A DNA stretch of 34,100 bases from Betaproteobacteria bacterium (GTDB taxonomy: Bacteria > Pseudomonadota > Gammaproteobacteria > Burkholderiales > Rhodocyclaceae). Shown here in pieces: positions 2,655 through 26,602 of this stretch. Where the stretch lies: positions 1-34,100 of the forward strand of contig JAGVUA010000012.1 in NCBI GenBank assembly GCA_019136545.1. Reading direction: 5' to 3'. The stretch's first letter is position 1. Each line of letters opens with the position of its first letter. Position numbers and translations under genes: made by a program. A model generated the notes under the pieces. That model ran no database searches. It saw only the letters and a list, made by a program, of their open reading frames with translations, and was not told where the DNA came from.

Positions 2655-2669
2655 CGGCAAGAATTGCCG
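2655..2669. promoter_or_regulatory. 15-bp palindrome (proposed FleR site), flgA/flgB intergenic
   Basis: A perfect CGGCAA-GAA-TTGCCG inverted repeat lies between the divergent flgA and flgB sigma54 promoters. A degenerate second copy, CGGCAA-A-TTGCGC (2686-2698), is centred 30 bases away, about three helical turns. The same palindrome recurs near the other sigma54 promoters of the window (10190, 18506, 24319, 26235). Binding by FleR is an inference. Confidence 0.65.
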
Positions 2670-2763
2670 TGCGGCGGCCGTTTGCCGGCAAATTGCGCGA
2701 AAAGCGGGCAAAAAAATCCCCTGATCCAGCGTTTGTCGCCGGAGTCGAGGGGCGGCGGCAGGA

Positions 2764-2779
2764 TGGCACGGTTGCTGCA
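2764..2779 (+). promoter_or_regulatory. Candidate sigma54 promoter of the flgBCDEFGHIJ operon
   Basis: TGGCACG-GTTG-CTGCA has a perfect -24 element and correct GG-N10-GC spacing (GG 2765-2766, GC 2777-2778). The expected transcript start is near 2790, about 33 bases before the flgB ATG. Confidence 0.8.
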
Positions 2780-2822
2780 TTACGGTGTTCGCCTAGTTGA
2801 CAGGATTCGCACCGAGACCGAC

Positions 2823-3233
2823 ATGCTCGACCGTATCGACCAGCAGATGGATACCCTGCGCACCGCCGCCAATCTTCGGGCGTATCGGCAGCAGCTGCTC
2901 GCCTCGAACATCGCCAATGCCGACACGCCCAACTACAAGGCCCGCGACATCGATTTTCAGGCGGCGCTGGACAAGGCGTCCTCCCAGCAAGGAAGCAGCG
3001 TCGCGATGGCGCGCACTTCGGCGCGCCACTTGACCGGCGCGGCCGGCGACGGCGCGCCTGCAGGTGCGCGGGTGATGTACCGGACCGAATATCAGTCGGC
3101 GGTCGATGGCAACACGGTGAACATGGACGTCGAGCGCAGCGCGTTCGCCGAAAACGCCGTGCATCTCGAGGCGACGCTGACCTTCATCCGCGAGAAATTG
3201 CGCGGCCTGCAATCCGCCATCCAGGGACAGTGA
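2823..3233 (+). CDS. flgB: FlgB, proximal rod protein
   Basis: 136 residues, the normal length for FlgB. The motif LLASNIANADTPNYKARDIDF (about residues 24-44) is the conserved rod/hook N-terminal signature. The C-terminus (NTVNMDVERSAFAENAVHLE) is the matching coiled part typical of FlgB. It is a structural subunit of the proximal rod, exported through the flagellar type III system. The reading frame stays open far upstream, but the ATG at 2823 gives the family N-terminus and lies just downstream of the sigma54 promoter. It is the first gene of the flgB-J operon; flgC starts one base after its stop. Confidence 0.97.
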   Translation: MLDRIDQQMDTLRTAANLRAYRQQLLASNIANADTPNYKARDIDFQAALDKASSQQGSSVAMARTSARHLTGAAGDGAPAGARVMYRTEYQSAVDGNTVNMDVERSAFAENAVHLEATLTFIREKLRGLQSAIQGQ

Positions 3234-3234
3234 C

Positions 3235-3639
3235 ATGAGCCTGTTCAACGTCTTCTCCATCGCCGGATCGGCGCTCACCGCGCAGTCGGCCCGCCTCAAC
3301 GCCACCGCCAGCAACCTGGCCAACGCCGACAGCATCGTCAGCGCCGACGGCAAGCCCTATCGCGCCAAGCAGGTGGTGTTCAAGGCGACTCCCGTGACCG
3401 GCGACGGCGGCATCGGCGTGCGGGTCGCCGGCATGGTCGATAGCGCCGCGCCGGGGCGGCTCGTCTATCAACCGAACAGCCCGGGCGCCAACGATCAGGG
3501 CTACGTCGAGATGCCGAACGTCAATGTGGTGGAGGAAATGACCAACATGATTTCAGCCTCGCGCGCCTATCAGAACAACGCCGAGGTCATGAGCACGGCC
3601 AAGTCCCTGCTGCTCAAGACCCTGGCCATCGCCCAGTAA
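3235..3639 (+). CDS. flgC: FlgC, proximal rod protein
   Basis: 134 residues. The N-terminus (SLFNVFSIAGSALTAQSARLNATASNLANADS) carries the rod-protein ANLANA-type signature. The C-terminus has the FlgC/FlgG ending PNVNVVEEMTNMISASRAYQNN, then AEVMSTAKSLLLKTLAIAQ. It polymerises with FlgB and FlgF as the proximal rod in the periplasm. Its ATG follows the flgB TGA after one base, so the two are translationally coupled. Length and both ends are normal for the family. Confidence 0.97.
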   Translation: MSLFNVFSIAGSALTAQSARLNATASNLANADSIVSADGKPYRAKQVVFKATPVTGDGGIGVRVAGMVDSAAPGRLVYQPNSPGANDQGYVEMPNVNVVEEMTNMISASRAYQNNAEVMSTAKSLLLKTLAIAQ

Positions 3640-3652
3640 CAGGAGCGCCATC

Positions 3653-4330
3653 ATGACCAGCACCAGCGCCGTTGCCGATTCGCGCCAGAGCCTGCTCGAT
3701 TTCGCCAATGGCAGTTCCAGCAGCACGGCCAAGAATTCCGTCTCGGAAGCCGAGAACCGTTTCCTCAAGCTGCTGACGACGCAGCTCAAGAATCAGGATC
3801 CGCTCAACCCGCTCGACAATGCGCAGATGACGTCGCAATTGGCCCAGATCAGCACGGTCAGCGGCATCGAGAAGCTGAACGCCACGCTGCAGACCTTGCT
3901 CGACGGCATGTCGGTGTCGCAGACGACGCTGACGGCCAATCTGGTGGGGCATGCCGTGCTGGTGCCGGGATCGGGCCTGCAGCTGGCGAGCGGCGCAGCG
4001 GCGGGCGGCATCGAACTCGCCGGCAGCGCCGACCAAGTGAATGTGACCATCAAGGACGCCAACGGCCTCACCGTGAAGACGCTGAGTCTTGGCGCCCAGG
4101 CCGCCGGCGTACACAACTTCACCTGGGATGGCACCACCGACGATGGCAGAAAAGCGGTGGATGGCACCTATACCATTTCGGTGAAGGCGACGCGCGGCGG
4201 CGAAACCGTGTCCGCCACCGCGCTGGGCTTCGCCACCGTGCGCAGCCTGGTTCGCAGCGGCGCCGATTTCATGCTGGACCTCGGAACGTCGGGTCTGGCC
4301 ACCATGGACGATGTGAAACAGATTTTGTGA
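3653..4330 (+). CDS. flgD: FlgD, hook capping (hook scaffold) protein
   Basis: 225 residues. The N-terminal region holds the FlgD signature FLKLLTTQLKNQDPLNPLD, followed by NAQMTSQLAQISTVSGIEKLN. The C-terminal part contains the FlgD Ig-like/Tudor domain, seen in HNFTWDGTTDDGRKAVDGTY. FlgD caps the growing hook and places FlgE subunits; its N-terminus is also an export and hook-length-switch substrate. AGGAG lies 8 bases before the ATG. It sits between flgC and flgE in the standard order. Confidence 0.96.
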   Translation: MTSTSAVADSRQSLLDFANGSSSSTAKNSVSEAENRFLKLLTTQLKNQDPLNPLDNAQMTSQLAQISTVSGIEKLNATLQTLLDGMSVSQTTLTANLVGHAVLVPGSGLQLASGAAAGGIELAGSADQVNVTIKDANGLTVKTLSLGAQAAGVHNFTWDGTTDDGRKAVDGTYTISVKATRGGETVSATALGFATVRSLVRSGADFMLDLGTSGLATMDDVKQIL

Positions 4331-4343
4331 CGGGAGAAGATAG

Positions 4344-5636
4344 ATGAGCTTTCAACAAGGCCTGAGCGGGCTCAACGCCTCTTCCAAGGCGCTCGATACC
4401 ATCGGCAACAACATCGCCAATTCGGGAACGGTCGGCTTCAAGGACTCGACCACCGTGTTCGCCGACGTCTTTGCCGCCTCGCTGTCGGGTGCCGGCGCGG
4501 CGCCGATCGGCTTGGGCGCCAAGGTTGCGACCGTGGCCCAGCAGTTCACCCAGGGCAACATCTCGGTGACCAACAATCCGCTCGACCTGGCGATCAACGG
4601 CAGCGGCTTCTACGAACTGACCAACGCCAACGGCGACATCCTGTACTCGCGCAACGGCCAGTTCCAACTGGACAAAAGCGGCTACATCGTCAATGCCCAA
4701 GGGCTGCGGCTGATGGGCTACGGCGCCGACGCCAACGGAACGATCACGCCGCCAACCACGTCCTTGCGTCTGTTCGACCCCGCGTCCAGTTCCGACGCGC
4801 CGCCGCAGGCGACCGGCACCAGCGTGTCCGCCACCGGTATCCAGGCCAACGTCAACCTCGACTCGCGCGAAGCCCTGCCCGCCAACGCCTTCGATCCCAC
4901 CGACACGTCGCCGGCGACCGACACCTACAACAAGTCGACGGCGGTCACGATCTACGACAGCCTGGGCAATTCGCACATCTACAACCTGTATTTCGTCAAG
5001 ACCGCCACCACCAACCAGTGGCAGGTCTATGCCACCGTGTCGAACCCCGCCGGCGCTTCGGTCGGCGTCACCGCGCTGGGCTTGGTGGACACCCTGACGT
5101 TCGGTGCCGACGGCACCTTGCCGGCATCCTATACGCCGCCGACCGTGACTGTTTCCGACACCGCCCTCGGCTATGCAGGCGGCGTCAATCCGCTGTCCTT
5201 CCCGTTGAACTTCAGCGGCTCGACGCAATACGGCGCCTCGTTCACCATCAACTCGCTTGTCCAGGACGGTTTCGCCTCGGGCAAGCTCGCCGGTTTCAAC
5301 ATCGGTTCCGACGGCGTCATCCTCGGCCGCTACACCAACGGCCAGTCGAAGAATCTCGGCCAGGTGGTGCTGGCCAGCTTCCGCAATCCGCAAGGCCTGC
5401 AACCGCTCGGCAACAACGTCTGGATGTCGACTTCGATGTCCGGGCCGGTGATGGAAGGCACGCCGGGGTCGAGCGGCCAGTACGGGCCGATCCAGTCGGC
5501 GGCGCTGGAGGACTCCAACGTCGACCTGACCAAGGAGCTGGTGGACATGATCACCCAGCAGCGCGCCTATCAGGCCAATGCCCAGACCATCAAGACGCAG
5601 GACAGCATCCTGCAGACGCTGGTGAATCTGCGTTGA
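4344..5636 (+). CDS. flgE: FlgE, flagellar hook protein
   Basis: 430 residues. The N-terminal D0 motif (SFQQGLSGLNASSKALDTIGNNIANSGTVGFK) and the C-terminal motif (SNVDLTKELVDMITQQRAYQANAQTI) are diagnostic of the FlgE/F/G/K family, and the length fits FlgE. The middle, with LAINGSGFYELTN and DSLGNSHIYNLYFVKT, is the hook D1/D2 region. It forms the universal joint between rod and filament; its length is controlled by FliK. GGGAG precedes the ATG. A 111-base gap to flgF follows. Confidence 0.97.
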   Translation: MSFQQGLSGLNASSKALDTIGNNIANSGTVGFKDSTTVFADVFAASLSGAGAAPIGLGAKVATVAQQFTQGNISVTNNPLDLAINGSGFYELTNANGDILYSRNGQFQLDKSGYIVNAQGLRLMGYGADANGTITPPTTSLRLFDPASSSDAPPQATGTSVSATGIQANVNLDSREALPANAFDPTDTSPATDTYNKSTAVTIYDSLGNSHIYNLYFVKTATTNQWQVYATVSNPAGASVGVTALGLVDTLTFGADGTLPASYTPPTVTVSDTALGYAGGVNPLSFPLNFSGSTQYGASFTINSLVQDGFASGKLAGFNIGSDGVILGRYTNGQSKNLGQVVLASFRNPQGLQPLGNNVWMSTSMSGPVMEGTPGSSGQYGPIQSAALEDSNVDLTKELVDMITQQRAYQANAQTIKTQDSILQTLVNLR

Positions 5637-5685
5637 TGACCGCTGAAAGTCAGTCGTGGTGACACGCCGCCCTTCAAGCAGCCGA

Positions 5686-5700
5686 CGCCGCATCGCGGCG
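5686..5700 (+). other. Small hairpin in the flgE-flgF gap
   Basis: CGCCGC-ATC-GCGGCG is a perfect 6-bp stem with a 3-base loop in the only sizeable gap of the flgB-J operon. There is no T run after it. It may stabilise the upstream flgE message or lower read-through into flgF, which is needed in far fewer copies than FlgE. The role is inferred. Confidence 0.35.
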
Positions 5701-5747
5701 AATATCGGTGACCTCCCCGCGCGCGAAGGGCGGGAGGGAGCGGCCTG

Positions 5748-6500
5748 ATGGATCGCCTGATCTATACCGCGATGACCGGGGCCTCCCAGACGCTGGGGCG
5801 GCAGGCGGCGGTCGCGCACAATCTGGCCAATGCGACGTCGACCGGCTATCGCGCCGAGGAGCATCGGCTACGCGCGGTGCCGGTCCGGTCGACCAATGCG
5901 CCGGCGCCGCTGGCGACGCGCGCTTTCGTCGTCGATGCCAGCACGCATACCAACTTCGAGCCGGGGCCGCTGCAATACACCGGCCGGACGCTCGACGTCG
6001 CGGTCGAGGGCGCGGGCTGGATCGCGCTGACCATGCCGGACGGCAGCGAGGCCTACACGCGCAACGGCAGCCTGGAAATGTCCGTCAACGGCATCATCCA
6101 GACCCGCGCCGGCATTCCGGTGCAGGGCGACGGCGGCCCCATCTCGGTGCCGCCAGACGTCAAGATCAGCATCGGCAAGGACGGCACCGTTTCCGTGGTG
6201 CCGGAAACCGGCGCCCAGAACACGGTCAATACCATCGGCCGCATCAAGCTGGTCAACCCCGACGAAGTGGACCTGGTGCGCGGCGCCGACGGCCTGTTCC
6301 GCACCCGCGCCGGCGACGCCGCGCCGGCAAGCGAGCAGGCGCGGCTCGCCTCCGGTTATCTCGAAGGCAGCAACGTCAATCCCGTCGCCGAAATGGTGAC
6401 CATGATTTCGCTGGGCCGCCAGTTCGAAATGCAGATCAAGATGCTGCAAACCGCCGACCAGAACGACAAGTCGGCCACCCAGGTGATTTCCGCCCGCTAG
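5748..6500 (+). CDS. flgF: FlgF, proximal rod protein
   Basis: 250 residues, normal for FlgF. The N-terminus [37 protein letters not shown] is typical: FlgF starts MDRLIYxAMxGA. The middle has [13 protein letters not shown] and [10 protein letters not shown], and the C-terminus [22 protein letters not shown]. It is a rod subunit assembled after FlgB and FlgC and before the distal rod FlgG. A GGGAGG ribosome site lies before the ATG. flgG starts 11 bases after the stop. Confidence 0.97.
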
Positions 6501-6511
6501 GAACCCGAACC

Positions 6512-7294
6512 ATGATTCGCTCCCTCTGGATAGGCAAGACCGGCCTCGACGCCCAGCAGACCCAGCTCGACGTGGTCTCCAACAACCTCGCCAACGTCAG
6601 CACCAACGGCTTCAAGCGGCAGCGCGCCGTGTTCGAGGATCTGCTCTACCAGACCCTGCGCCAGCCGGGTGCTGCGTCGACGCAACAGACCAACATTCCT
6701 TCCGGCCTGATGCTCGGCACCGGCGTGCGGCCGATCGCGACCGAGCACATCTTCATTCAGGGCAGCCTGCAGAAAACGGAAAACGCGCTCGACATCGCCG
6801 TCAACGGCAACGGCTTCTTCCAGATCCAGATGCCCGACGGCACGCTGGCCTACACGCGCGACGGCTCGTTTCAAAAGGACAGCACCGGCCAGGTGGTGAC
6901 GGCCAGCGGTTATCCGTTGTCGCCGGCAATCACCATCCCCGACAACGCCACCTCGATCACCATCAGCCGCGACGGCATCGTCTCGGTGGTGACCGCCGGC
7001 AACGCCACGCCGACGCAGCTCGGCAACATCCAGCTGGCCAACTTCGTCAACGTCGGCGGCCTGCAGAGCGTCGGCGAGAACCTGTTCGTCGAGACCGGTT
7101 CGTCGGGCACGCCAACCCCGAACACGCCGGGCACCAACGGTACCGGCCTGCTCAACCAAGGCTATGTCGAGACCTCCAACGTCAACGTCGCCGAGGAACT
7201 GGTGACGATGATCCAGACCCAGCGTGCCTACGAGCTCAATTCCAAAGTCATCCAGACCTCGGACAACATGCTGGGCCGGCTGACCCAACTCTAG
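6512..7294 (+). CDS. flgG: FlgG, distal rod protein
   Basis: 260 residues, the canonical FlgG length. The N-terminus ([36 protein letters not shown]) and the C-terminus ([27 protein letters not shown]) are the expected signatures. The middle has [22 protein letters not shown]. The frame stays open upstream through flgF, but the ATG at 6512, preceded by AGGAA, gives the family N-terminus. FlgG forms the distal rod inside the P and L rings. Confidence 0.97.
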
Positions 7295-7304
7295 GATCCC
7301 CGAG

Positions 7305-7970
7305 ATGAAAGCGGCTTTGGCATTTCTCACCGTTGCGGCGCTGCTGGCCGGTTGCGTCACCACCACGCCGTCGACGGCGCTGCACCAGCCGATGTCCGTG
7401 CGGCCGGAGGCCAGGACCGCTGCGATGCCCGTCAATGGCGCCATCTTCAACACCGCCAGCAGCCGGCCATTGTTCGAGGACCGGCGCGCGCGCTACGTCG
7501 GCGATACCCTGACCATCAATATCGTCGAGAAGACCCAGGCCTCGAAGAAGTCGGACACCAAGGCCGAGCGCAGCCAGGCCGTCGACGTCTCCGTGCCGAC
7601 GGTCGTCGGCCTGCCGTTCAAGGGCGTACAGGGCCTGACCCTGGGCGCCGACAGCGGCAACAAGTTCAGCGGCAAGGGCGAAAACACATCGAGCAACGAT
7701 TTCACCAGCACCATCACGGTCACGGTCATCGACGTGCTGCCGAACGGCAACCTGCTCGTTTCGGGCGAGAAACTGCTCGGCCTCAAGGAAGGCGAGGAGT
7801 TCATCCGCTTCTCGGGGGTGGTCAATCCGACCACCATCACCGGCGCCAACTCAGTGCAGTCCACGCAGGTGGCCGATGCCCGCATGGAATTCAAGGCCAA
7901 CGGCTTCCTCGACACCGCCCAGGTCATGGGCTGGCTGTCGCGCTTCTTCCTCACCGTCATGCCTTTCTAA
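7305..7970 (+). CDS. flgH: FlgH, L-ring lipoprotein
   Basis: 221 residues. A lipoprotein signal ends in the lipobox LLAGC, with Cys17 as the acylated residue. The body has the FlgH motifs SLFEDRRAR-like (PLFEDRRARYVGDTLTI), SNDFTSTITVTVIDVLPNGNLLVSGEK and the C-terminal FSGVVNPTTI, then STQVADARMEF. It forms the outer-membrane bushing around the rod. AGGAT lies before the ATG. It sits between flgG and flgI in standard order. Confidence 0.97.
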   Translation: MKAALAFLTVAALLAGCVTTTPSTALHQPMSVRPEARTAAMPVNGAIFNTASSRPLFEDRRARYVGDTLTINIVEKTQASKKSDTKAERSQAVDVSVPTVVGLPFKGVQGLTLGADSGNKFSGKGENTSSNDFTSTITVTVIDVLPNGNLLVSGEKLLGLKEGEEFIRFSGVVNPTTITGANSVQSTQVADARMEFKANGFLDTAQVMGWLSRFFLTVMPF

Positions 7971-7982
7971 GCGAACCGATCC

Positions 7983-9095
7983 ATGAGCGCTTCCCAGAAA
8001 ATCCTCATTGCCCTGATGTGGCTGTTCGCCAGCCTGATGGTCGCCGATGCCGCGCGCGCGGAGCGGATCAAGGACCTGGCCTCGGTCGCCGGCGTACGCA
8101 ACAACCAGTTGGTCGGCTACGGCCTGGTGGTCGGCCTCGACGGCTCGGGCGACCAGACGACGCAGACGCCCTTCACCGTGCAGAGCATCATCAACATGCT
8201 GTCCAACATGGGGGTGACCCTGCCGCCGGGACAGTCGCTACAGCTGAAGAACGTCGCCGCCGTCATGGTGACCGCCACGCTGCCGCCGTTTGCGCGCGCC
8301 GGCCAGCAGATCGATGTCACCGCCTCGTCCATCGGCAACGCCAAGTCGCTGCGGGGCGGTACCCTGGTCATGACGCCGCTCAAGGGCGCCGACGGCAATA
8401 TCTACGCCATGGCCCAGGGCAACGTGGTGGTGGTGGGCGCCGGCGCGTCCGGCGCCGGATCGAAAGTGACGGTCAATCATCTTTCAGTGGGGCGCATCGC
8501 CGGCGGCGCCACCGTGGAGCGCGAAGTGCCGACGCCGGTGGGCCAGGGCGAGTACGTCCATTACGAACTGAATGCAACCGATTTCAGCACCGTGCAAAGG
8601 ATCGTCGACGCCATCAACCTTGCCCAGCCGGGCGCGGCAGTGGCGATGGACGGCCGCCAGGTGCGCGTGCGCGCGCCGCTGGATGCCAACGAGCGGGTGG
8701 CGTTTCTCGGCCGCCTCGGCGAGATCGAGATCGAGCCCGGGCAAGTGCCCGCCAAGGTGATCGTCAATTCGCGTACCGGCTCGGTGGTGATGAACCAGAT
8801 GGTGCGGATCGAGAACTGCGCGGTTGCGCACGGCAATCTGACCGTGTCGGTGACCGCGGAGAACACGGTCAGCCAGCCCGGCGCGCTCTCGGGCGGTCAG
8901 ACCGCCGGCGTCAGCAATGCCCAGATCGACATCAAGCAGGATGGCGCCATTCTCGCCAACCTGCGCAGCGGCGCCAGCCTGGCCGACGTGGTGAAGGCGC
9001 TCAATTCCATCGGCGCCAACCCGCAGGACCTGATCGCGATCCTTCAGGCCATGAAGACGGCCGGCGCCTTGCGCGCGGAGCTGGAAATCATTTGA
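7983..9095 (+). CDS. flgI: FlgI, P-ring protein
   Basis: 370 residues with a signal peptide of about 26 residues ending ADAARA. The mature start ERIKDLASVAGVRNNQLVGYGLVVGLDGSGD is the FlgI family hallmark. Further family blocks are NMLSNMGVTLPPGQSLQLKN and the C-terminal GASLADVVKALNSIGANPQDLIAILQAMKTAGAL. It assembles as the periplasmic peptidoglycan-level ring with the help of FlgA. There is a weak ribosome site but only a 12-base gap after flgH, so coupling is likely. Confidence 0.97.
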   Translation: MSASQKILIALMWLFASLMVADAARAERIKDLASVAGVRNNQLVGYGLVVGLDGSGDQTTQTPFTVQSIINMLSNMGVTLPPGQSLQLKNVAAVMVTATLPPFARAGQQIDVTASSIGNAKSLRGGTLVMTPLKGADGNIYAMAQGNVVVVGAGASGAGSKVTVNHLSVGRIAGGATVEREVPTPVGQGEYVHYELNATDFSTVQRIVDAINLAQPGAAVAMDGRQVRVRAPLDANERVAFLGRLGEIEIEPGQVPAKVIVNSRTGSVVMNQMVRIENCAVAHGNLTVSVTAENTVSQPGALSGGQTAGVSNAQIDIKQDGAILANLRSGASLADVVKALNSIGANPQDLIAILQAMKTAGALRAELEII

Positions 9096-9155
9096 GGTTT
9101 TCGCGCCTGTTCGGTCGATCGAGCCGTCGGCTTCGGTGCGATCCTCGAGCCACCC

Positions 9156-10136: not shown

Positions 10137-10148
10137 TGGGCCTTGTCA

Positions 10149-10164
10149 TGGCACGACTATTGCA
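10149..10164 (+). promoter_or_regulatory. Sigma54 promoter of flgKL
   Basis: TGGCACG-ACTA-TTGCA is a perfect match to the sigma54 consensus with GG-N10-GC spacing (GG 10150-10151, GC 10162-10163). The expected transcript start is near 10175. It lies in the flgJ-flgK gap, 68 bases before the FlgK ATG. Confidence 0.9.
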
Positions 10165-10186
10165 CGGCTTGTCGGTGATCCTTAAC

Positions 10187-10207
10187 TAACGGCAGCCTTT
10201 GCCGTTA
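10187..10207. promoter_or_regulatory. Palindrome (proposed FleR site) downstream of the flgK promoter
   Basis: The core, CGGCAG-CCT-TTGCCG (10190-10204), has one mismatch to the repeated CGGCAA-N3-TTGCCG motif. The symmetry extends outward to TAACGGCA/TGCCGTTA, 8-base arms around 5 bases. It is centred about 22 bases downstream of the predicted transcript start. Activator sites downstream of the start are known for the related FlrC regulator of Vibrio, so this position is acceptable for an enhancer. It could also form a leader hairpin. Confidence 0.6.
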
Positions 10208-10231
10208 AACGAACATCGATCCGGAGCTTTC

Positions 10232-12154: not shown

Positions 12155-12170
12155 GCGCGGGAGAAAGATC

Positions 12171-14545: not shown

Positions 14546-14555
14546 GGTCGCTGGC

Positions 14556-15735: not shown

Positions 15736-15813
15736 GGTTCCGCCAGCATACGGATGCGCGCGCGTGCCAATAGGCCCGAGCAGAAGGGAAAAGAACGGGC
15801 TTTCCGCCGTCTC

Positions 15814-16236: not shown

Positions 16237-16245
16237 GATCTGCTC

Positions 16246-17229: not shown

Positions 17230-17247
17230 GCGCGGCTTTGTTCGACG

Positions 17248-17847: not shown

Positions 17848-17885
17848 ACCTCATCTCCCTGAAACTGGAACGCCGTGACCGGATG

Positions 17886-19007
17886 TCAGGCGAACACGTC
17901 CACCAATCCCCGGCCGCTGCTTGTCGTCAGCGCGACTCCGGCGGCACCGGTGGCGACGGCGAGGCCGAGCGTCCTGCCCGACGCTGCGTCGCCGGGCGCG
18001 GGGCGCCCCGCGAGCTCGCCGCGGGCATCGCCGCTATCCGCGTTGCGCGGCAATTCCGAACCGACCTGTGAATTCAGCACGATTCCGGCATCCGCCAACA
18101 ATTCGCGCAGGCGCGGCAGAGCGCTTTCGAGCGCCTCGCGAACCGCCGGGTTGGCCGAGACGAACAAGGCGTTGGCCTGGTCGCCCGTCATGGTGAGCGA
18201 TACCTCCACGCGGCCGAGTTGCGGCGGCGTCAGGACCAGTTCGGCCCGGTTCTGCTGTTGTCCGGTCATGAGCACCAGACTGTCGCCGATCGCATCCTGC
18301 CAACGGTGATCGCCCAGCGGCGCAACGATGCGGAATGCGGTGGCCGAGCCGGTCTGGGCGGCTGCCGCGTGCGCAGGCGCGACGGCGGCGGCCGTCTGCA
18401 ACGCCAGGGTTGCCGCGTCGTTCGGGTCGTGGGCCGCAGCCAAGACTTCCGATGGGCGTATCGCCACGGCTGACTTTGCTTCGGTCTTCGCCGAAGCCGC
18501 GTCGGCGGCAAGTATTGCCGTCGGGGCAGCGGCGCTTGCCGAGTCCTTGCCGGACTTGCCGACCGGCGCGGCAGCGGCTTCCCCTTCCCCTTGACTGGGG
18601 GCACTGAGCTCCTGGCGGCCCGGGCCACGCGCCAAGGCCTGGGTGGCTCCGGCGAGCCCGTTCGCCGGGGCTCCGCCGGGAAGCAGGTCTTCGCGCGGGA
18701 GGGCGCTGGCCCCCGCGGCATTGGCCAAGGCCGGGATGCTGACCGGTAGTGCGGTCTGCCCCTCCGTCAATCCAAGCGATGCCAGAAAGGCGGGATCCAG
18801 CGGCCCGGAACCGGCGGAGACGTCGGTGTCGGCCTGCTTAGGATCCAGGACGCCGCCGAGCAGCCCCGCGACATCGATCGCCATCTGACCGCTCAGGATG
18901 TCGACAAAGGACATGCCGCCTTCATTGGCAACGGCGCCGGCCTCGGTGGCAGGCTTGGCGCCGACGGCGAAGGTCGTCGGACGATGGGCGGCGCTTACTC
19001 CAGACAT
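17886..19007 (-). CDS. fliK: FliK, flagellar hook-length control protein
   Basis: 373 residues. The N-terminal two thirds are Ala/Pro/Gly-rich and poorly conserved, as expected for the exported ruler part. The C-terminal domain is the FliK switch domain, with LVLTPPQLGRVEVSLTMTGDQANALFVSANPAVREALE and LPRLRELLADAGIVL. FliK measures the hook and makes FlhB switch export specificity. It has its own sigma54 promoter and starts the fliK-fliL-fliM run. A copy of the 15-bp palindrome lies inside the coding region at 18506-18520. A second FliK-like gene lies at 28215-29375. Confidence 0.93.
   Translation of the reverse strand: MSGVSAAHRPTTFAVGAKPATEAGAVANEGGMSFVDILSGQMAIDVAGLLGGVLDPKQADTDVSAGSGPLDPAFLASLGLTEGQTALPVSIPALANAAGASALPREDLLPGGAPANGLAGATQALARGPGRQELSAPSQGEGEAAAAPVGKSGKDSASAAAPTAILAADAASAKTEAKSAVAIRPSEVLAAAHDPNDAATLALQTAAAVAPAHAAAAQTGSATAFRIVAPLGDHRWQDAIGDSLVLMTGQQQNRAELVLTPPQLGRVEVSLTMTGDQANALFVSANPAVREALESALPRLRELLADAGIVLNSQVGSELPRNADSGDARGELAGRPAPGDAASGRTLGLAVATGAAGVALTTSSGRGLVDVFA
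18506..18520. promoter_or_regulatory. 15-bp palindrome (proposed FleR site) inside fliK
   Basis: A perfect CGGCAA-GTA-TTGCCG within the fliK reading frame, about 520 bases downstream of the predicted fliK transcript start and about 660 bases upstream of fliL. It matches the intergenic copies exactly in both arms and spacing. Sigma54 activators can act at this distance, but a coding coincidence in an Ala-rich region remains possible. Confidence 0.4.
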
Positions 19008-19043
19008 CGGGCAATCCTCGAAAGCAATTCTGCCGGAAAGAGA

Positions 19044-19059
19044 TGCAAGGCTTGTGCCA
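19044..19059 (-). promoter_or_regulatory. Sigma54 promoter of the fliK operon
   Basis: On the minus strand, TGGCACA-AGCC-TTGCA fits the sigma54 consensus with correct GG-N10-GC spacing. The expected transcript start is near 19033, about 26 bases before the FliK ATG. A half-site (TTGCCG on the plus strand, 19079-19084) of the repeated palindrome lies about 20 bases upstream of the -24 element, at the end of fliJ. Confidence 0.8.
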
Positions 19060-19087
19060 GTAATGTTCGTTCCACGCTTTGCCGCAG

Positions 19088-19540: not shown

Positions 19541-19586
19541 GGGCTTGGTCCAGATCCTAGTCACTACGAAGCTTCTTCATTCTAGT

Positions 19587-20981
19587 TCACCCGAACAGCG
19601 CGGCCAGGGCGCGCAGGCTGTCCTCCGTACTGGCGCGCTCTTCGATCCCCTGCTGGAGGAAATGCTCCATGCTCGGGTACAAGGTGATGGCCTGGTCGAG
19701 CATCGGGTCGGAGCCGCGGGCGTAGGCGCCGACCGCGAGCAGGTCGCGCGCCCGCTGGTAGCGCGAGTAAAGCTGCTTGAAGCGCCGCACCAGGTCGAGG
19801 TGAGCCGGGTCGATCAGGTTGGTCATGGCGCGTGAAATCGACTGCTCGATGTCGACGGCGGGGTAGTGCCCGGCATCGGCCAGCGAGCGCGACAGCACGA
19901 CGTGACCGTCGAGAATGGCGCGCGCCGAATCGGCGATCGGATCCTGCTGGTCGTCGCCTTCCGCCAGCACGGTGTAGAAGGCCGTGATCGAGCCGCCGCC
20001 TTCGGGGCCGTTGCCGGCGCGTTCCACCAGCTGCGGCAGTCGGGCGAACACCGAAGGCGGGTAGCCGCGCGTGACCGGCGGTTCGCCGACGGCCAGCGCC
20101 ACTTCGCGCTGAGCCATGGCATAGCGGGTGAGCGAGTCCATGATCAGCAGCACATGGCGCCCCTGGTCGCGGAAATGCTCGGCGATGGATGTGGCGTAGG
20201 AGGCGCCCTGCAGGCGCATCAGCGGGCTGACGTCGGCCGGGCAGGCGACGACCACCGAGCGCGCCAGTCCTGCGTCGCCCAGGTTGTGCTCGATGAACTC
20301 CTTCACTTCGCGGCCGCGTTCGCCGATCAGGCCGACGACGATCAACTCGGCGGCCGTGTAGCGCGCCATCATGCCCAGCAGCACGCTCTTGCCGACGCCG
20401 GAGCCGGCGAACAAACCCAGGCGCTGGCCGCGGCCGACGGTCAGCAGGCCGTTGAGCGCGCGGATGCCGACGTCCAGCGTCTGCGAAATCGGCGCGCGCT
20501 GCAGGGGATTGAACGGACGACTGTTGAGCGAGCGGACGTGCTTGGCGTCGAGCGGTCCGAGCTGGTCGAGCGGCCGGCCGTTGCCGTCGACGACCCGACC
20601 CAGCAACTGGTTGCCGACCGGCAGGCGTTTCGACCGGTCGAAGGCGCGGCGGAACATCGGCGTGGCGCGGCCCAGGCGCGGCGTGGCCGACGGCGGTTCG
20701 ATCGGAATGACGCTCGATCCCGGCGCCAATCCGTAAACATCTTCCGTGGGCATCATGAACAATCTTTCACCGGCGAACCCGACGACTTCGGCTTCGACCG
20801 TGCCGTCGCCGGGAATCTGCACCCGGCAGGATGCGCCCAGGGCCACTTTCAGGCCGGACGCCTCCATGACCAGGCCGTTGATGCGGGTGAGGCGCCCGCC
20901 GGCCTGGAAGGGCATGACATCGACAAGCTGATCGCGGCACTGGACCAGCAGGTTGCGCCAAGCCTGGCATTGCGGCGTCAT
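19587..20981 (-). CDS. fliI: FliI, flagellum-specific export ATPase
   Basis: 464 residues. Walker A is GSGVGKS within [17 protein letters not shown], and Walker B is [27 protein letters not shown], the type III ATPase signature. Other marks are [31 protein letters not shown] and the C-terminal [17 protein letters not shown]. It forms the cytoplasmic hexamer that drives export with FliH and FliJ. The frame is open further upstream through fliH, but the ATG at 20981 gives a normal N-terminus and overlaps the fliH stop by four bases. Confidence 0.97.
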
Positions 20982-21595
20982 GATGTTCCCGGCTCGTTCC
21001 AGGGTGTCTGGAGACCGATGCCTTCGAGGACTCGGCGCCAGCGCGTGGCGAGCGTGCCGTCGATCTGGCTGCTGCCCGATTCGACCAGGCAATCGCCCGG
21101 CTTCAGGTTGGGCTCCTCGAGAATCCGGTGGCCGGCATGCGCCAGCACATCGCCGGCATAGGAGCGCACCAGGGACGCGTCCTGCGGATGAAGGTAGATG
21201 GTCGCGTGTTGATGAGGAAACTGCGCGAGCGCCTCGTTGACCACGGCTTGTATGGTTTCCGGGCGGAGGGAGATGGTTTCGCGCACGACTTGACGCGCGA
21301 TCTCCGTCGCCAGCGCCAGCAGCTCGTCGGCGACCGACTGATTGAACTCGGCCAGCGCCTGTTCCAATCCGGCGGCGGCGCGGCCGAGGCGCTCGGCTTC
21401 GGCGCGGGCGGCGGCCTGCCCGGCGGCATAACCGGCCTGCCGCCCCGCGGCTTCGGCTTGGCTGCGGAGGCGCTCGATCTCCGTGGGATCCGGTCGCTGC
21501 GCGAGCGCGTCGTCGCCGGCCGATTCGTTGGCCGGCATTTCCAGCGTGTCGAGACTGGCCAGTTCCCAGCGTTCCCAGGCGGTCAGGCCGCTCAT
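20978..21595 (-). CDS. fliH: FliH, negative regulator/stator of the FliI ATPase
   Basis: 205 residues. The middle is a long Ala/Glu/Arg helix containing a GxxxG-type repeat ([22 protein letters not shown]), typical of FliH. The C-terminal domain has [25 protein letters not shown] and HPQDASLV, then [21 protein letters not shown], the conserved FliH/YscL end. It links FliI to FliN in the C-ring. The start at 21595 overlaps the fliG stop; the frame is open further upstream, but that part lies within fliG. Confidence 0.95.
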
Positions 21596-22596
21596 ATCAT
21601 CTGGTCCTCGCCGCCCTTGCCGCCCAGGACGATCTGGCCTTCGTCGGCGAGGCGGCGGGCGATCTTGAGAATCTCCTTCTGCTCGCCTTCGACCTCGGAC
21701 AGACGCACCGGCCCCTTGGCCTCCAGGTCTTCCTTGAGCATTTCCGCGGCGCGCTGCGACATGTTCTTGAAAATCTTGTCGCGCAATTCGGGCGACGCGC
21801 CCTTGAGCGCCAGGATCAGCGAATCCGACTGAATCTCGCGCAGCAGCAGCTGAATGCCGCGGTCGTCGATGTCGAGCAGGTTCTCGAACACGAACATCTC
21901 GTCGAGTATCTTCTGCGCCAGGTCCGGGTCGTATTCGCGGACATTGTCGACGATGGCCGTTTCCGCCGCCTGGCCGACGAAGTTGAGGATCTCGGCGGCA
22001 TGGCGCACGCCGCCCATCGATGCCTTCTTGACGTTGCCGGAGGCGCCTGCCAGCAAGCGCTTCATGGCGTCGTTGAGTTCCTGCAGCGCCACCGGCTGCA
22101 CGCCGTCGAGCGTGGCGATGCGCAGCAGCACGTCGTTGCGCAGGCGTTCGGTGAAATGCTTGAGAATCTCGCCGGCGTGGTCGAATTCCAGATGGACGAG
22201 GATGGTGGCGATGATCTGCGGATGCTCGTTCTTGATCAGGTCCGCCACGGTCGGCGCGTCCATCCACTTCAGCCCTTCGATGCCGGCGGTGTCGCCGCCC
22301 TGCAGGATGCGCGACAGCAGATTGGACGCCCGGTCGTCGCCCAGCGCCTTGGTCAGCATGGCGCGGATCACGCTCTCATCCACCGGCACGGGCGAGCCCT
22401 TGGACGTGTGGTCTTCCAGTTCGTCGAGCACGCCCTCGATCCGATCGCGCGGCACCGCCTTTAGTTGCGCCATCGCGTGGCCGAGCTTCTGGACTTCCTT
22501 CGGACCCAGATGCTTCAGGATCTCGGCGGCTTCGTCCTCGCCCAGCGAGAGGAGCAGCATGGCGCTCTTTTCCAGGCCCTCATCGGGATTCGCCAC
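21592..22596 (-). CDS. fliG: FliG, C-ring rotor/switch protein
   Basis: 334 residues, the standard length. The N-terminal part binds FliF ([21 protein letters not shown]). The middle contains the EHPQ motif in [15 protein letters not shown]. The C-terminal torque domain has [30 protein letters not shown] and charged residues such as the [23 protein letters not shown] helix, which face MotC. FliG couples proton flow to rotation. It overlaps the fliF end by 17 bases. Confidence 0.98.
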
Positions 22597-24217
22597 CGAC
22601 CCACTCCTTGATCACGCCCGCCACCATCTTGGGATCCTGCTTGGCGAGGTCGCGGGCCTGCTGCAGCTTCGATTCGTAGCTGCGGCCCTGACTCGCGCCG
22701 CCACGGCTTTCGGCCGCCGCGGCCGCGGCGCCCGCCGCGGCTTCCTGCTCGACTTCGACGCGATGCGCGGTCGCCGCCAGCATCTCGAACAGCGGTTTGA
22801 ATGCCCGGGTCCACAGCAGCCAGGCCAGGAACACGAACAGCAGCCACTTGCCGATGTCCTTGGCCGTGGCGATCAGCCACGGATCCTTCCACAGCGGCGT
22901 GTCGGGAATCAGCTCCTGTTCCCTCGGCGCGAAGGCCACGTTGGCGACATTGACGGTGTCGCCGCGATCCTTGTTGAAGCCGACCGCTTCCTTGGCCAGC
23001 GCCGTCGCCTGCTTCAGTTCGGTGTCGGTCAGCGGCGCGGCCTTGCCCTTGGCCGGGTCGAGCTTGTTGTTCAGCACCACCGCCACCGCCAACCGCTTGA
23101 CCACGCCGGAGGAGCCTCGAGTGTGCTTGATGGTCTTGTCGAGTTCGTAATTGACCGTGGCATTCTTGCTGAAAGTCAGCGCCGACGACCCGCCGCTGCC
23201 GCCGGCATTGGCGGCACCCGCGACCGGCGGGCTGGTGATCGGCGCGGTGGCCGGGACCGGCGGCTGGTTGGTCAGCGCGCCGGGCACGCCGATGGCCGCG
23301 CCGCCGCCGGGATTGCCTTGCTCGGCGGTCTGCTGGCTGCGGATCGCCGTTTCCGGGTTGGGATTCGGCCGATAGGTTTCCGCCACCTGCTCGGTTTCCG
23401 AGAAGTCGACGTCGGCGGTCACCTGCGCGCGCACGTTGGCGCTTCCGACCAGCGGCCCCAGGATCGCCTCGATGCGTTGGCGATAGGCTTCCTCGATGTC
23501 GCGCACGTACTTGATCTGGCCTGGGTCCAGTCCGGCGGTCTTGCCGGCGTTGCTGGGTGCCGACACCAGATTGCTGTTCTGGTCGATCACGCTGACCTGG
23601 GCCGGGCTGAGCTGCGGCACGCTCGACGACACCAGATGCACGATGCCGGACACTTGGGCCGGCTCGAGCGTCCGTCCGGGGTGCAAGGTCACCAGCACGG
23701 AAGCGGTGGGCTTCTGGTCGTCGCGCAGGAAGGCGGTCTGCTTGGGAATGGCCAGATGGACCCGGGCGCCCTTGACGGCGGCGAGCGACTGGATCGAACG
23801 CGCCAGCTCGCCTTCGAGCGCGCGCTGGTAGTTGATCTGTTCGGCGAATTGGCTGATGCCGAGCTTCTGGGTTTCCATGACCTCGAAGCCGACCAGCCCG
23901 CCCTTCGGCAAGCCCTGCGAGGCCAGCCGCAGCCGCACGTCATGTACCTGGTGCGAAGGCACCAGGATGGCACCGCCGCCTTCCGCGATTCGGTAAGGAA
24001 CGTTCTGCTGCTCGAGCGCGGCGACGATTTGGCCGCCATCCTTTTCCGAGAGGTTGGCGAACACCACGCCGTAAGTCGGTTCCTTCGCCCAGAGCAGCCC
24101 GCCGACCAGCAGCGCGATGGCCAGCGCGAGCGCCGCCAGAACGGCCAGCTTCTGCGTCGCGTTCATGCGATTGAATGCGGCGAGGTTCAACGGAAGGGCG
24201 GGTTGTGCGGTGGCCAT
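22580..24217 (-). CDS. fliF: FliF, MS-ring protein
   Basis: 545 residues. The first membrane segment is at about residues 25-45 (LAVLAALALAIALLVGGLLWA). It is followed by the ring-building motifs TYGVVFANLSEKDGGQIVAALEQQNVPYRI and QGLPKGGLVGFEVME. A Gly/Ala/Pro-rich loop lies near residues 330-370, and a second membrane segment (WLLFVFLAWLLWTRAF) near 450-470. The C-terminal tail contacts FliG. The frame is open upstream, but the ATG at 24217 gives the proper N-terminus downstream of the sigma54 promoter. It is the first gene of the fliFGHIJ block and is divergent from fleS. Confidence 0.97.
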   Translation of the reverse strand: MATAQPALPLNLAAFNRMNATQKLAVLAALALAIALLVGGLLWAKEPTYGVVFANLSEKDGGQIVAALEQQNVPYRIAEGGGAILVPSHQVHDVRLRLASQGLPKGGLVGFEVMETQKLGISQFAEQINYQRALEGELARSIQSLAAVKGARVHLAIPKQTAFLRDDQKPTASVLVTLHPGRTLEPAQVSGIVHLVSSSVPQLSPAQVSVIDQNSNLVSAPSNAGKTAGLDPGQIKYVRDIEEAYRQRIEAILGPLVGSANVRAQVTADVDFSETEQVAETYRPNPNPETAIRSQQTAEQGNPGGGAAIGVPGALTNQPPVPATAPITSPPVAGAANAGGSGGSSALTFSKNATVNYELDKTIKHTRGSSGVVKRLAVAVVLNNKLDPAKGKAAPLTDTELKQATALAKEAVGFNKDRGDTVNVANVAFAPREQELIPDTPLWKDPWLIATAKDIGKWLLFVFLAWLLWTRAFKPLFEMLAATAHRVEVEQEAAAGAAAAAAESRGGASQGRSYESKLQQARDLAKQDPKMVAGVIKEWVGGESR

Positions 24218-24293
24218 CGCGGTAAGCGCTAGAGAGTCCGGTTGGTGGCGAAATTGCCGGCTCCACGAGCCGCTGTCGGATTGTGGGCTGCAC

Positions 24294-24310
24294 AAGCAAG
24301 CCCGGTTCCA
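24294..24310 (-). promoter_or_regulatory. Candidate sigma54 promoter of fliFGHIJ
   Basis: On the minus strand, TGGAACC-GGGC-TTGCTT has GG-N10-GC spacing and a strong -12 element; the -24 element deviates at two positions. The expected transcript start is near 24284, about 67 bases before the FliF ATG. Confidence 0.7.
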
Positions 24311-24318
24311 GCAAGAAA

Positions 24319-24333
24319 CGGCAATTTTTGCCG
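24319..24333. promoter_or_regulatory. 15-bp palindrome (proposed FleR site), fliF/fleS intergenic
   Basis: A perfect CGGCAA-TTT-TTGCCG, centred about 42 bases upstream of the predicted fliF transcript start and about 58 bases before the fleS ATG. Placed between the divergent genes, it could serve fliF activation and fleSR feedback. A degenerate copy with an intact TTGCCG arm (24254-24259) lies in the fliF leader, 74 bases away. Confidence 0.65.
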
Positions 24334-24383
24334 GCATTTCGGAAGTTGTTGTGACACGGGGATTCTGCCATGATGGCCGGATC

Positions 24384-25256
24384 ATGGACACCCTGCTGGC
24401 CGCCGACGCCGAACTCGATCCCAAGCGCCTGGCCGAGGCCTTCCAGGCTTTCAGCCAGGCGTCGGACGAACTGGCCGCCGCCTATGGCGCGCTCGAGCGG
24501 CAGGTCGAGTCCCTGACCGCCGAACTGGCCGCCGCCAACGCCGAGGCCAATCGCCTGCGCGAGGAGGCCGAGCGCAACAAGCGCCTGGCCGCGATGGGCG
24601 AGATGGCCGCCCAGCTTGCCCATCAGTTGCGCACGCCGCTGGCCGCCGCCTTGCTCTATGCCGGCAACCTCGAGAATCCCGATCTGTCGTCCGACAGCCG
24701 CACGTCGATCGCGCGCAAGACCGTCGACCGTCTCAAGCATCTCGAGCGCCTGATCCAGGACATGCTGTTGTTCGCGCGCGGCGAGGTGCTGGGCCGCGAA
24801 AACTTTCCCGTCGACGACCTGCTCACGGATCTTGCCCACACCTGCGAGCCGCTGGCCGCTCGCCGCCAGGTCGACTTCCGCATCGCCGGCCGGTCGTCGG
24901 GCGCTCTGATGACCGGCAATCGCAAGGCGCTGGCCGGCGCCCTGACCAACCTGGTCGAGAACGCCATCCAGGCGGTCGCTGCCGGCGGCGTGGTGACGCT
25001 GGCGGCCGTCTGCCGTGACGACCAGGCGATTCTCTCGGTCAGCGACAATGGTCGCGGCATGACGCCCGACGTCGTCGCCCGACTGTTCGAACCGTTTTTC
25101 ACCACCCGCAGCGATGGCACCGGACTCGGCCTGGCGATCGCCCGGGGCGTCGCGCGCGCTCATGGCGGCAGTATCGACGTCCGCTCGGCGCCGGGCGTCG
25201 GCACCGAGTTCATCATCACGCTGCCCCTGACCCAGTCATCATGCCGGAACGCCTGA
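24384..25256 (+). CDS. fleS: FleS/FlrB-like sensor histidine kinase (cytosolic)
   Basis: 290 residues with no membrane segment. Residues about 15-70 are a coiled coil. The HisKA domain follows, with the H-box MAAQLAHQLRTPLAAALLYAGNL and phospho-acceptor His80. The ATPase domain has the N-box NLVENAIQAV, G1 LSVSDNGRGM and G2 DGTGLGLAIARGVARAHGG. It phosphorylates FleR (next gene; 16-base overlap) in the known FleS/FleR, FlrB/FlrC pathway. The Pseudomonas FleS carries a PAS sensor domain; none is seen here. The frame is open upstream, but ATG 24384 is the only start that avoids the fliF promoter region. Confidence 0.9.
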   Translation: MDTLLAADAELDPKRLAEAFQAFSQASDELAAAYGALERQVESLTAELAAANAEANRLREEAERNKRLAAMGEMAAQLAHQLRTPLAAALLYAGNLENPDLSSDSRTSIARKTVDRLKHLERLIQDMLLFARGEVLGRENFPVDDLLTDLAHTCEPLAARRQVDFRIAGRSSGALMTGNRKALAGALTNLVENAIQAVAAGGVVTLAAVCRDDQAILSVSDNGRGMTPDVVARLFEPFFTTRSDGTGLGLAIARGVARAHGGSIDVRSAPGVGTEFIITLPLTQSSCRNA

Positions 25257-26602
25257 CCCTGCTGGTCGTCGAGGACGACGACGCGCTGCGCGACGCGCTG
25301 CTGATCACCCTGGAAACGGCCGGCCACCGGCCGCTGGGAGCGCCCGGCGGCCGCGAGGCGCTGGCTTTGCTGGATGAGCATGCTTTCAACATGGTGGTAT
25401 CCGACCTGCGCATGGCGCCCATGGACGGCCTGCAACTGCTGGCCGAAATTCGCGCGCGTCATCCGACGCTGCCGGTGCTGTTGATGACCGCTTTCGGCGA
25501 TGTCGACAAGGCGGTGGCGGCCATGCGCGGCGGCGCCTGCGACTTCATGCTCAAGCCTTTCGAACCGAAGGCACTGCTCGACCAGATCGCCCGCTACGCC
25601 ACGCCGCCACAGGCGGAGGGCGTCATCGTCGGCGATCCGCGCACCCGCGAAGTGCTGCTGCTGGCGTCACGCGTGGCGCGCACCGATGCCACCGTGCTGC
25701 TGACCGGCGAGTCGGGCACCGGCAAGGAAGTGTTCGCACGCTACATTCACGATCAATCGGCCCGCGCCAAGGGGCCGTTCGTCGCCATCAACTGCGCGGC
25801 GATTCCCGACAACCTGCTCGAGGCCACCCTGTTCGGGCACGAGAAAGGGGCGTTCACCGGCGCGCAGGCCGCTCAGGCCGGCAAGTTCGAGCAGGCCAAC
25901 GGCGGCACCCTGCTGCTCGACGAGATTTCCGAGATGCCGCTGGCCTTGCAGGCCAAGCTGCTGCGGGTGCTGCAGGAGCGTGAAGTCGAGCGCGTCGGCG
26001 GCAAGAAACCCGTGGCGCTCGATATCCGGGTGCTGGCGACCTCGAACCGCGACATGGCGTTGGAAGTGCAGTCCGGCCGCTTCCGCGAGGATCTCTACTA
26101 TCGGCTCAATGTCTTTCCGCTGGCCATACCGGCGCTACGCGAGCGGCGGGGCGACATCCTGCCGCTGGCACGGCATTTTCTCGCCCTGCACGGTAGCCGC
26201 CTCGGCCAGCCCGCCCGGCTGGTGGACGAAGTAGCGGCAAAACTTGCCGCTCATGCCTGGCCGGGCAATGTCCGGGAACTGGAAAACGTCATCCAGCGGG
26301 CATTGATCATGGCGACGGGCGAGCGGCTCGACGCGGCCGCGCTGCCCATCACGGGCGCCGCCGCGGCTGCCGCGCCGTCGGTTGCGATGCCGGCCGCCCC
26401 GGCGGCGACCGAAGTCGGCATGCCGTCGGCGCTCGCGGTACCCGCCAACATGAAGGATCTCGAGCGCCAGCACATTTTGGAAACCCTGGCGAAAGTCGGC
26501 GGCTCGCGCAAGAAGGCGGTCGAACTGCTGGGCATTTCCGAGCGCACCCTGCGCTACAAGCTTGCCCAGTACCGGCAGGAGGGCGACTTCAGCGACGATT
26601 GA
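25241..26602 (+). CDS. fleR: FleR/FlrC-like sigma54-dependent response regulator
   Basis: 453 residues in three domains. The receiver (1 to about 120) has phospho-acceptor Asp55 in VVSDLRMAPMDGL and the conserved Lys in LKPF. The AAA+ domain (about 130-370) has Walker A GESGTGKE (156-163), the sigma54-contact loop GAFTGA (203-208) and GGTLLLDEIS. After an Ala-rich linker, a Fis-type helix-turn-helix (about 405-450: ILETLAKVGGSRKKAVELLGISERTLRYKL) binds DNA. It should activate the sigma54 promoters seen here and probably recognises the repeated CGGCAA-N3-TTGCCG palindrome; one copy lies inside this gene at 26235. Confidence 0.94.
   Translation: MPERLTLLVVEDDDALRDALLITLETAGHRPLGAPGGREALALLDEHAFNMVVSDLRMAPMDGLQLLAEIRARHPTLPVLLMTAFGDVDKAVAAMRGGACDFMLKPFEPKALLDQIARYATPPQAEGVIVGDPRTREVLLLASRVARTDATVLLTGESGTGKEVFARYIHDQSARAKGPFVAINCAAIPDNLLEATLFGHEKGAFTGAQAAQAGKFEQANGGTLLLDEISEMPLALQAKLLRVLQEREVERVGGKKPVALDIRVLATSNRDMALEVQSGRFREDLYYRLNVFPLAIPALRERRGDILPLARHFLALHGSRLGQPARLVDEVAAKLAAHAWPGNVRELENVIQRALIMATGERLDAAALPITGAAAAAAPSVAMPAAPAATEVGMPSALAVPANMKDLERQHILETLAKVGGSRKKAVELLGISERTLRYKLAQYRQEGDFSDD
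26233..26251. promoter_or_regulatory. Palindrome (proposed FleR site) inside fleR, upstream of fliE
   Basis: AGCGGCAA-AAC-TTGCCGCT is a perfect 19-bp inverted repeat whose core (26235-26249) is identical in both arms to the intergenic sites. It is in the 3' third of fleR (codons 331-337), about 406 bases upstream of the predicted fliE transcript start. The distance suits a sigma54 enhancer. It encodes AAKLAA, so chance from codon use is possible but unlikely at this length. Confidence 0.5.

Follow-up and report, generated by a model that had tools for sequence, protein, structure and literature searches.

How does a bacterium turn the completion of its flagellar export gate and MS ring into ordered transcription, and which word on the DNA carries the order to the right promoters? 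The conversion itself rests on regulators of the FleR/FlrC/FlbD type. A candidate for such a word came up in a stretch of 34,100 nucleotides (the window; contig JAGVUA010000012.1 of assembly GCA_019136545.1, C108 in our numbering) from a betaproteobacterium of the Rhodocyclaceae, whose genome consists of 3.40 Mb in 162 contigs. The window carries a flagellar gene cluster, including the genes of the sensor kinase FleS and the response regulator FleR, and the palindrome CGGCAA-N3-TTGCCG is repeated in it. An original prediction, made from the letters of the window alone, had listed four exact copies and one with a single mismatch, had put a candidate sigma54 promoter near each of them and no sigma28 promoter near any, and had named FleR as the candidate binder. 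As far as comparison of sequences can tell, the palindrome most probably serves as the FleR operator and would work as an enhancer, in part from inside genes. FleR is the sigma54-dependent response regulator of FleS/FleR, the checkpoint in flagellar assembly.

Exact copies at flagellar genes

All five predicted positions (Table 1) are right, and so is the remark that chance would give far less than one match. The 27 one-mismatch places of the control, divided by 36 variants, predict 0.75 exact copies for a genome and 0.0075 for the window, where the probability of at least four is about 1e-10. If all palindromes with 6-bp arms and spacers of 0-8 are counted in the window, CGGCAA-N3 is the most repeated with four copies, the next having three. 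The whole genome holds five exact copies, the four of the window and one at C24:9681-9695, between cheA and flhB and 18 bp before the probable GTG of flhB. Thus the genome-wide search that the prediction had proposed finds 5 of 5 exact copies at flagellar genes, and the reversed pattern gives no exact copy across the whole source genome. It is to be noted that only exact copies are informative by count, since with one mismatch allowed the genome has 30 further places and the control 27. With two mismatches the window has 8 matches against 4.0 expected, a weak excess (5 of 100 shuffles reach 8), so that the signal sits in the exact copies. The mismatched copy in the flgK leader is likewise not significant by count; what supports it is where it stands, 41 bp from the sigma54 site of flgK, a spacing seen in relatives too. 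The motif is an inverted repeat fit for a dimer, and, as had been read from the window, only the arms are kept while the spacer is free, as expected of an enhancer; exact copies in relatives carry other spacers again.

Are the same places occupied in related genomes? All exact copies were viewed with their surroundings in 11 FleR-positive genomes of the family (the source genome G000, G001, G002, G004, G005, G008, G020, G024, G027, G028 and G032). There, 47 of the 57 copies have flagellar genes no more than 1.6 kb away (L167 only cheA, at a contig end), and the reversed control has five matches. With differing spacers, copies recur in the flgA/flgB gap, before flhB, between fliF and fleS, in fleR upstream of fliE, at fliK and before flgK, so the proposed comparison of orthologous clusters came out positive for flgB, flgK, fliF, fliE and fliK. 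Five more FleR-positive family genomes have 14 of 32 copies at flagellar genes (G021 3/6, G023 2/13, G025 4/7, G031 2/2, G036 3/4), and in G013 five of the six copies inspected, out of eight, are flagellar; other FleR-positive genomes (for example G012, G016, G018, G022, G030 and G034) contribute counts and single loci only. In other families of the order, 9 of 13 copies are flagellar in FleR-positive genomes (G040, G044, G049, G051, G056) against 3 of 22 in genomes without a FleR match (G038, G039, G043, G052, G055, G058, G059). These 22 copies take in G055 and G059, counted without regard to whether they are flagellate, and exclude those of the likewise FleR-negative G007 (one), G011, G026 and G057 (two each); copy L032 of G011 and copy L042 of G026 have no flagellar gene nearby. 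The order-level contrast has p 0.002 and the pooled one, 70 of 102 against 3 of 22, p 4e-6, both values overstating the contrast because related genomes are not independent.

Some copies stand elsewhere. EF-hand genes lie beside L157, L163, L172 and L174 (in G005, G004, G001 and G002, respectively) and also beside L031 and L164, with two-component genes next to L157, L163 and L172; such copies are perhaps further targets, perhaps an unrelated palindrome. G055 has seven exact copies (L018, L342-L347) with no FleR or FlhC match in the genome and no flagellar gene found nearby. Five copies of G023 (L294, L296, L298, L299, L300) belong to one repeated element, at least 99.7% identical over 1015 bp, with a sigma54-like site 479 bp away.

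Distances to promoters and copies inside genes

Sigma54 sites were scored with a matrix whose weights follow the general consensus of such promoters, and the threshold for distance scans was 0.86. At this threshold the window has 8 sites and the reversed window also 8; at 0.9 or above the numbers are 5 and 0, and between 0.86 and 0.90 they are 3 and 8. The promoters predicted beside the flgB, flgK, fliK and fliE copies therefore hold up, while the one before fliF scores within chance (Table 1). As to sigma28, three matches with at most two mismatches were found, and one of them (10182-10208, two mismatches) overlaps the flgK copy and looks accidental. Since these loci abound in sigma54-like sites (90 in 285 kb, and 67 when the sequences are reversed), the promoter argument rests on constant distances.

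Such distances are kept for flgB, flgK, fliE and fliK. At flgB the motif is upstream, by 109 bp in the window and by 56-123 bp in 20 relatives. At flgK it is downstream, the mismatched copy of the window at 41 bp and exact copies at 40, 41 and 41 bp in L180, L196 and L204. In Vibrio cholerae, FlrC binds downstream of some promoters. At fliE the motif is upstream within fleR, 387 bp away in the window, with six relatives giving 309-503 bp; in G056 it is 227 bp from a site scoring 0.89, and in G021 and G036 the copy is inside fliE, 223 bp downstream of the sigma54 site. At fliK it is downstream, the window having 539 bp and eight relatives 380-581 bp, in or just before the recognisable part of fliK; the fliK copies of L169, L177, L315 and the FleR-negative G043 (L017) have no site of at least 0.86.

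Two of the window's copies, at 18506 and 26235, thus lie within coding sequences, a point on which the original prediction needs amendment. Could they be mere products of the protein sequence? Of the 30 best fleR open reading frames from the 40 genomes with a FleR match, 16 contain an exact copy, 10 in the codon register of the window; seven have an exact copy in another register (residues 322-328; 420 in L232), one of these being an additional copy. The residue under the spacer varies (K, S or I) and both arms stay, and in fleR the 12 motif positions do not otherwise stand out by their conservation (rank 650 of 1325). Judged from these comparisons, the intragenic copies are not coding accidents.

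The protein that reads the palindrome

The product of fleR has the make-up of a FleR/FlrC (NtrC-type) regulator, that is, a receiver, a sigma54 AAA+ domain and a Fis-type helix-turn-helix, and is encoded beside fleS in the flagellar cluster. The source genome has a hybrid hierarchy, in which FlhC (flhC at C127:5421-5903) occurs together with FleS/FleR and sigma54 promoters. No FleQ domain is matched in it at E 0.001, an absence that is not absolute in an assembly 94.8% complete, and the palindrome does not qualify as a FleQ box. In the counts for 61 genomes, FlhC-like matches below 200 bits were scored as absent. The mean number of exact copies is 4.47 in the 40 genomes with FleR and 1.38 in the 21 without (p 9e-6), and 3.39 with FlhC against 3.43 without (p 0.5). 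The motif thus co-occurs with FleR across genomes, the exceptions being G058, G043, G014 and G048, and its presence does not track FlhDC as that of an FlhDC box would. A cleaner contrast is given by flgB: in the FleR-positive G040, G044, G049, G050, G051 and G056 the exact motif stands 68-121 bp upstream of a good sigma54 site, and in G037 and G048, also FleR-positive, an 11/12 match is found, while the FleR-negative flagellates G007, G038, G039, G043 and G052 have neither the motif nor a sigma54 site above 0.85 there. In G052 the best FleR match (44%, 6e-98) was counted as a paralogue.

Does the word change together with its reader beyond the order? Within 360 bp upstream of flgB, 12 FleR-positive loci of the beta side contain 15 copies of GGCAA-N3-TTGCC with no more than one mismatch, 8 of them exact, and none of the N4 form, whereas seven gammaproteobacterial loci have GGCAA-N4-TTGCC six times (1 exact) and N3 never; six FleR-negative flgB loci have N3 once (G058). 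Five of the seven gamma loci carry N4, namely three of Pseudomonas, one of Neptunomonas and one of a Woeseiaceae genome, with copies 79-80 bp before the sigma54 site and one more at 101; the flgB regions of Pseudoalteromonas and Photobacterium contain no N4 or N3 half-site pair at one mismatch. Around fleR/flrC in 20 gamma loci (377 kb), spacer 4 accounts for 13 exact copies and eight other spacers together for 6. All 13 are flagellar: ten in fliK reading frames, one in fleR before fliE, one in flgK and one in the flagellin/fliD gap. Ten of the 14 loci with a fliK match have such a copy in fliK, and 7 of these 10 copies follow a sigma54 site of at least 0.9 by 236-402 bp. Taken together, the N4 and N3 patterns suggest a common half-site and a one-base shift in dimer spacing. 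As recognition helix the source FleR has ISERTLRYKL, the regulators of Pseudomonas and Photobacterium have ISPRTLRYKL, and FlbD types mostly have ISIRTLRNKL, the core RTLRYKL being common to the first two.

In alphaproteobacteria, Parvibaculum sedimenti (G063, FlbD type) has an exact copy before fliF (L088:5798 and 2931), and one-mismatch places number 65 in its genome and 19 in the control. A match to the ftr elements of Caulobacter, looked for in Caulobacter segnis, finds little support: two 10/12 copies stand before flgK, but the locus is near the control, with 23 matches of at least 9 against 26 in the control, and 5 of at least 10 against 2, and the genome has 17 one-mismatch places against 39. 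Two CGGC-N7-GCCG palindromes at L110:1127 and 1308, whose distances to the matched 5' part of its flgK are 52 and 233 bp, are possible ftr elements.

Several observations weigh against FleR as the reader. The chief one is G058, which has no FleR match at E 1e-95 and carries exact copies at flgA/flgB and fliD/flaG, without a flgB sigma54 site of 0.86 or more; G043, also without a FleR match, has one copy near fliK. Conversely, the FleR-positive G041 has the flgB motif without a sigma54 site at the same threshold, and G014 and G048, FleR-positive as well, have no exact copy, only 11/12 matches at flgB. The contrast within the family is mostly one of flagellate against non-flagellate, because 5 of 6 FleR-negative family genomes have no flgC match, and the FleR-positive mean is inflated by the five of G023's 13 copies that lie in its repeated element. 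Non-flagellar exact copies recur in the genus near EF-hand genes. Nearness to promoters is by itself a weak argument, 32 of 59 copies having a site of at least 0.86 within 600 bp. In none of the loci scanned does a flhB copy, that of the source genome included, have a sigma54 site within 600 bp, another departure from the predicted picture, and the fliF site is weak (0.88) in the window and in two genomes of the same genus (L168 and L176, 23 bp from the operator); elsewhere, L203 has a site at 115 bp and several other relatives have none. Finally, the gamma excess of spacer 4 vanishes at one mismatch (38 against 12-40 for other spacers).

What else, then, could read the palindrome? Some other flagellar DNA-binding protein, a second NtrC-type activator or a repressor, might do so while FleR is merely correlated; the flagellar copies of G058 and G043 without detected FleR, and the exact copy of Parvibaculum with its FlbD-type regulator, would be explained in this way. 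We consider it unlikely, since the source genome has no FleQ-domain match, Parvibaculum fits the same branch because FlbD and FlrC are FleR relatives, and Pseudomonas, with its FleR-type helix, keeps both the half-site and the geometry at flgB. The master regulator FlhDC, which probably stands above FleSR in the source organism, is another candidate, the palindrome then marking FlhDC-dependent promoters. FlhC is indeed present there, copies are found at the early genes flhB and fliF, and G058 combines FlhC and two flagellar copies with no detected FleR. However, motif counts do not follow FlhC, and FleR-positive genomes without a strong FlhC match keep the motif at flgB and fliK (G008, G021, G023, G025, G036) and in or near fliE (G021, G036). 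Moreover, the five FleR-negative flagellates that lack the motif at flgB are FlhC-positive, and the constant distance to sigma54 sites would be left unexplained, so that this is a quite improbable reading.

The palindrome might also act in flagellar mRNAs as an RNA hairpin, be it a terminator, an attenuator or a mask of the ribosome site; it offers a perfect 6-bp stem with a 3-base loop, and copies occur both in the leader of flgK and about 20 bp ahead of flhB. Such a role is hardly credible when the flgB copy lies upstream of its promoter, the arms are fixed in sequence and not merely complementary, and the gamma copies have a four-base loop with the same half-sites. FleR therefore remains our preferred reader, and its nomination in the original prediction gains indirect support, as far as genome comparison reaches, from the lack of a FleQ-domain match, from copy numbers that track FleR and not FlhC, and from the gamma half-sites at flgB and fliK.

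If FleR reads the palindrome, FleS would sense assembly and activate FleR, a FleR dimer would bind the two CGGCAA half-sites via its Fis-type helices, and activated FleR would oligomerise there and reach, by DNA looping, the sigma54 polymerase at flgB, flgK, fliE and fliK. Its enhancers would lie upstream for flgB and fliE and downstream for flgK and fliK, those of fliK and fliE being embedded in the coding sequences of fliK and fleR. We infer FleR binding and activation at these candidate sites from the geometry and from the published FleR targets flgB-F, fliC, fliK and fliL. Once export gate and MS ring are complete, FleR may, by contrast, act as a repressor of early genes, at flhB and perhaps at fliF. 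For flhB this weaker proposal rests on the missing sigma54 site and on an operator 18 bp ahead of the start; for fliF, where the operator is 101 bp before the start, repression is more doubtful still and leans on the precedent of FlbD and ftr4. A wider picture may be sketched tentatively, and we would not yet wager on it: in betaproteobacteria with both FlhDC and FleSR, one palindrome might run the whole checkpoint, FleR switching flhB and fliF off and the middle genes on via intragenic enhancers in fliK and fleR, with the half-site kept across beta and gamma and its spacing re-phased from N3 to N4 together with the regulator.

Features of the window and known systems

In the gene map of the window, motB is followed by flgN, flgM and flgA on the minus strand, flgBCDEFGHIJKL on the plus strand, fliR-Q-P-O-(N)-M-(L)-K-J-I-H-G-F on the minus strand, and fleS, fleR and fliE on the plus strand; fliN and fliL are placed by order and open reading frame only. 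After fliE, on the minus strand, come a YcgR-like gene, an open reading frame like the FlhB C-terminus, a second FliK-like gene, two fliT genes, fliS, fliD, flaG and fliC. At 27911-29375 on the minus strand, the second FliK-like gene stands next to its FlhB C-terminal-domain-like neighbour, and a comparable pair is described for Pseudomonas putida PP4328-4329 (PMC5026340).

Table 1. Operators, sigma54 sites and regulator genes of the window.
Feature	Position	Strand	Remarks
Exact operator (spacer GAA), flgA (-)/flgB (+) gap	2655..2669		109 bp upstream of flgB sigma54 site, about 35 bp upstream of flgA start; read as enhancer
Second element TTGCCGGCAA	2682..2691		Two overlapping outward half-sites; 12 bp past flgA/flgB operator
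flgB sigma54 promoter TGGCACGGTTGCTGCA	2764..2779	+	Score 0.98
flgK sigma54 promoter TGGCACGACTATTGCA	10149..10164	+	Score 1.00
One-mismatch operator, flgK leader	10190..10204		41 bp past start of sigma54 site
Exact operator within fliK coding sequence	18506..18520		Codon 163 of 373; 539 bp downstream of fliK sigma54 site
Sigma54 promoter between fliJ and fliK TGGCACAAGCCTTGCA	19044..19059	-	Score 0.96
Weak sigma54-like site before fliF TGGAACCGGGCTTGCT	24295..24310	-	Score 0.88, within chance; 23 bp from operator
Exact operator, fliF (-)/fleS (+) gap	24319..24333		101 bp before fliF ATG, 50 bp before probable fleS ATG
fleS, sensor kinase	24384..25256	+	HisKA and HATPase_c; start codon picked by eye
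fleR, response regulator, proposed binder	25241..26602	+	Receiver PF00072, sigma54-interaction AAA+ PF00158, Fis-type HTH PF02954
Exact operator within fleR coding sequence	26235..26249		Codons 332-337; 387 bp upstream of fliE sigma54 site
FleR Fis-type HTH	26453..26572	+	Residues 405-444; recognition helix ISERTLRYKL
fliE sigma54 promoter GGGCATGGCGTTTGCT	26622..26637	+	Score 0.92

The operator in the fliF/fleS gap may control fliF and possibly fleSR itself. The TTGCCGG that follows the flgA/flgB operator is also present in 6 of 10 other flgB regions (11 sequences compared by reading). A strict tandem second operator at 18-19 bp, an idea that came from a few flgB regions at the order level, was rejected: around 61 sites, near-matches at 15-60 bp number 57 against 45 expected with no dominant offset, and all that is left of the idea is the TTGCCGG element of some flgB regions.

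How new is such an operator? Enhancers of FleR, FlrC and FlbD are an already known kind, and operators of FleR relatives are in print. The literature passages found by search do not give CGGCAA-N3-TTGCCG as a flagellar operator, most papers containing both six-letter words lying outside these passages; in one paper, the matches to CGGCAA and TTGCCG are primers. The betaproteobacterial operator, its location within fleR and fliK, and the shift of the spacer seem to be new, the motif of P. syringae FleR being known here by description only. A defined operator would make FleR/FlrC/FlbD regulons predictable from sequence in many flagellates, and intragenic enhancers hundreds of bases downstream, occurring from Pseudomonas to this family of betaproteobacteria, would, if true, be out of the ordinary among bacteria.

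The known systems resemble the proposed one in several respects. In both FleSR and FlrBC the kinase senses assembly and activates the regulator (PMC7064773). FlrC of V. cholerae, the counterpart of FleR, acts at flgB, flgF, flgK and flaA (PMC7064773). FlbD of Caulobacter, which activates middle genes and represses fliF through ftr4 (PMC3930126), is the best NCBIfam match of the source FleR (432.8 bits, below the cut-off of 750) and has a dual role like that proposed for FleR. The FleQ box is likewise the operator of a flagellar sigma54 activator, but differs in that the source genome has no match to the FleQ domain. FleR of P. aeruginosa activates flgB-F, fliC, fliK and fliL (PMC13432727), and for FleR of P. 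syringae a motif from HT-SELEX is published, with matches at fliE and fliH (PMC7532196). Pseudomonas FleR is an orthologous regulator with flgB, fliK and fliL among its reported targets, and its candidate sites have the spacer N4 where those of the source family have N3.

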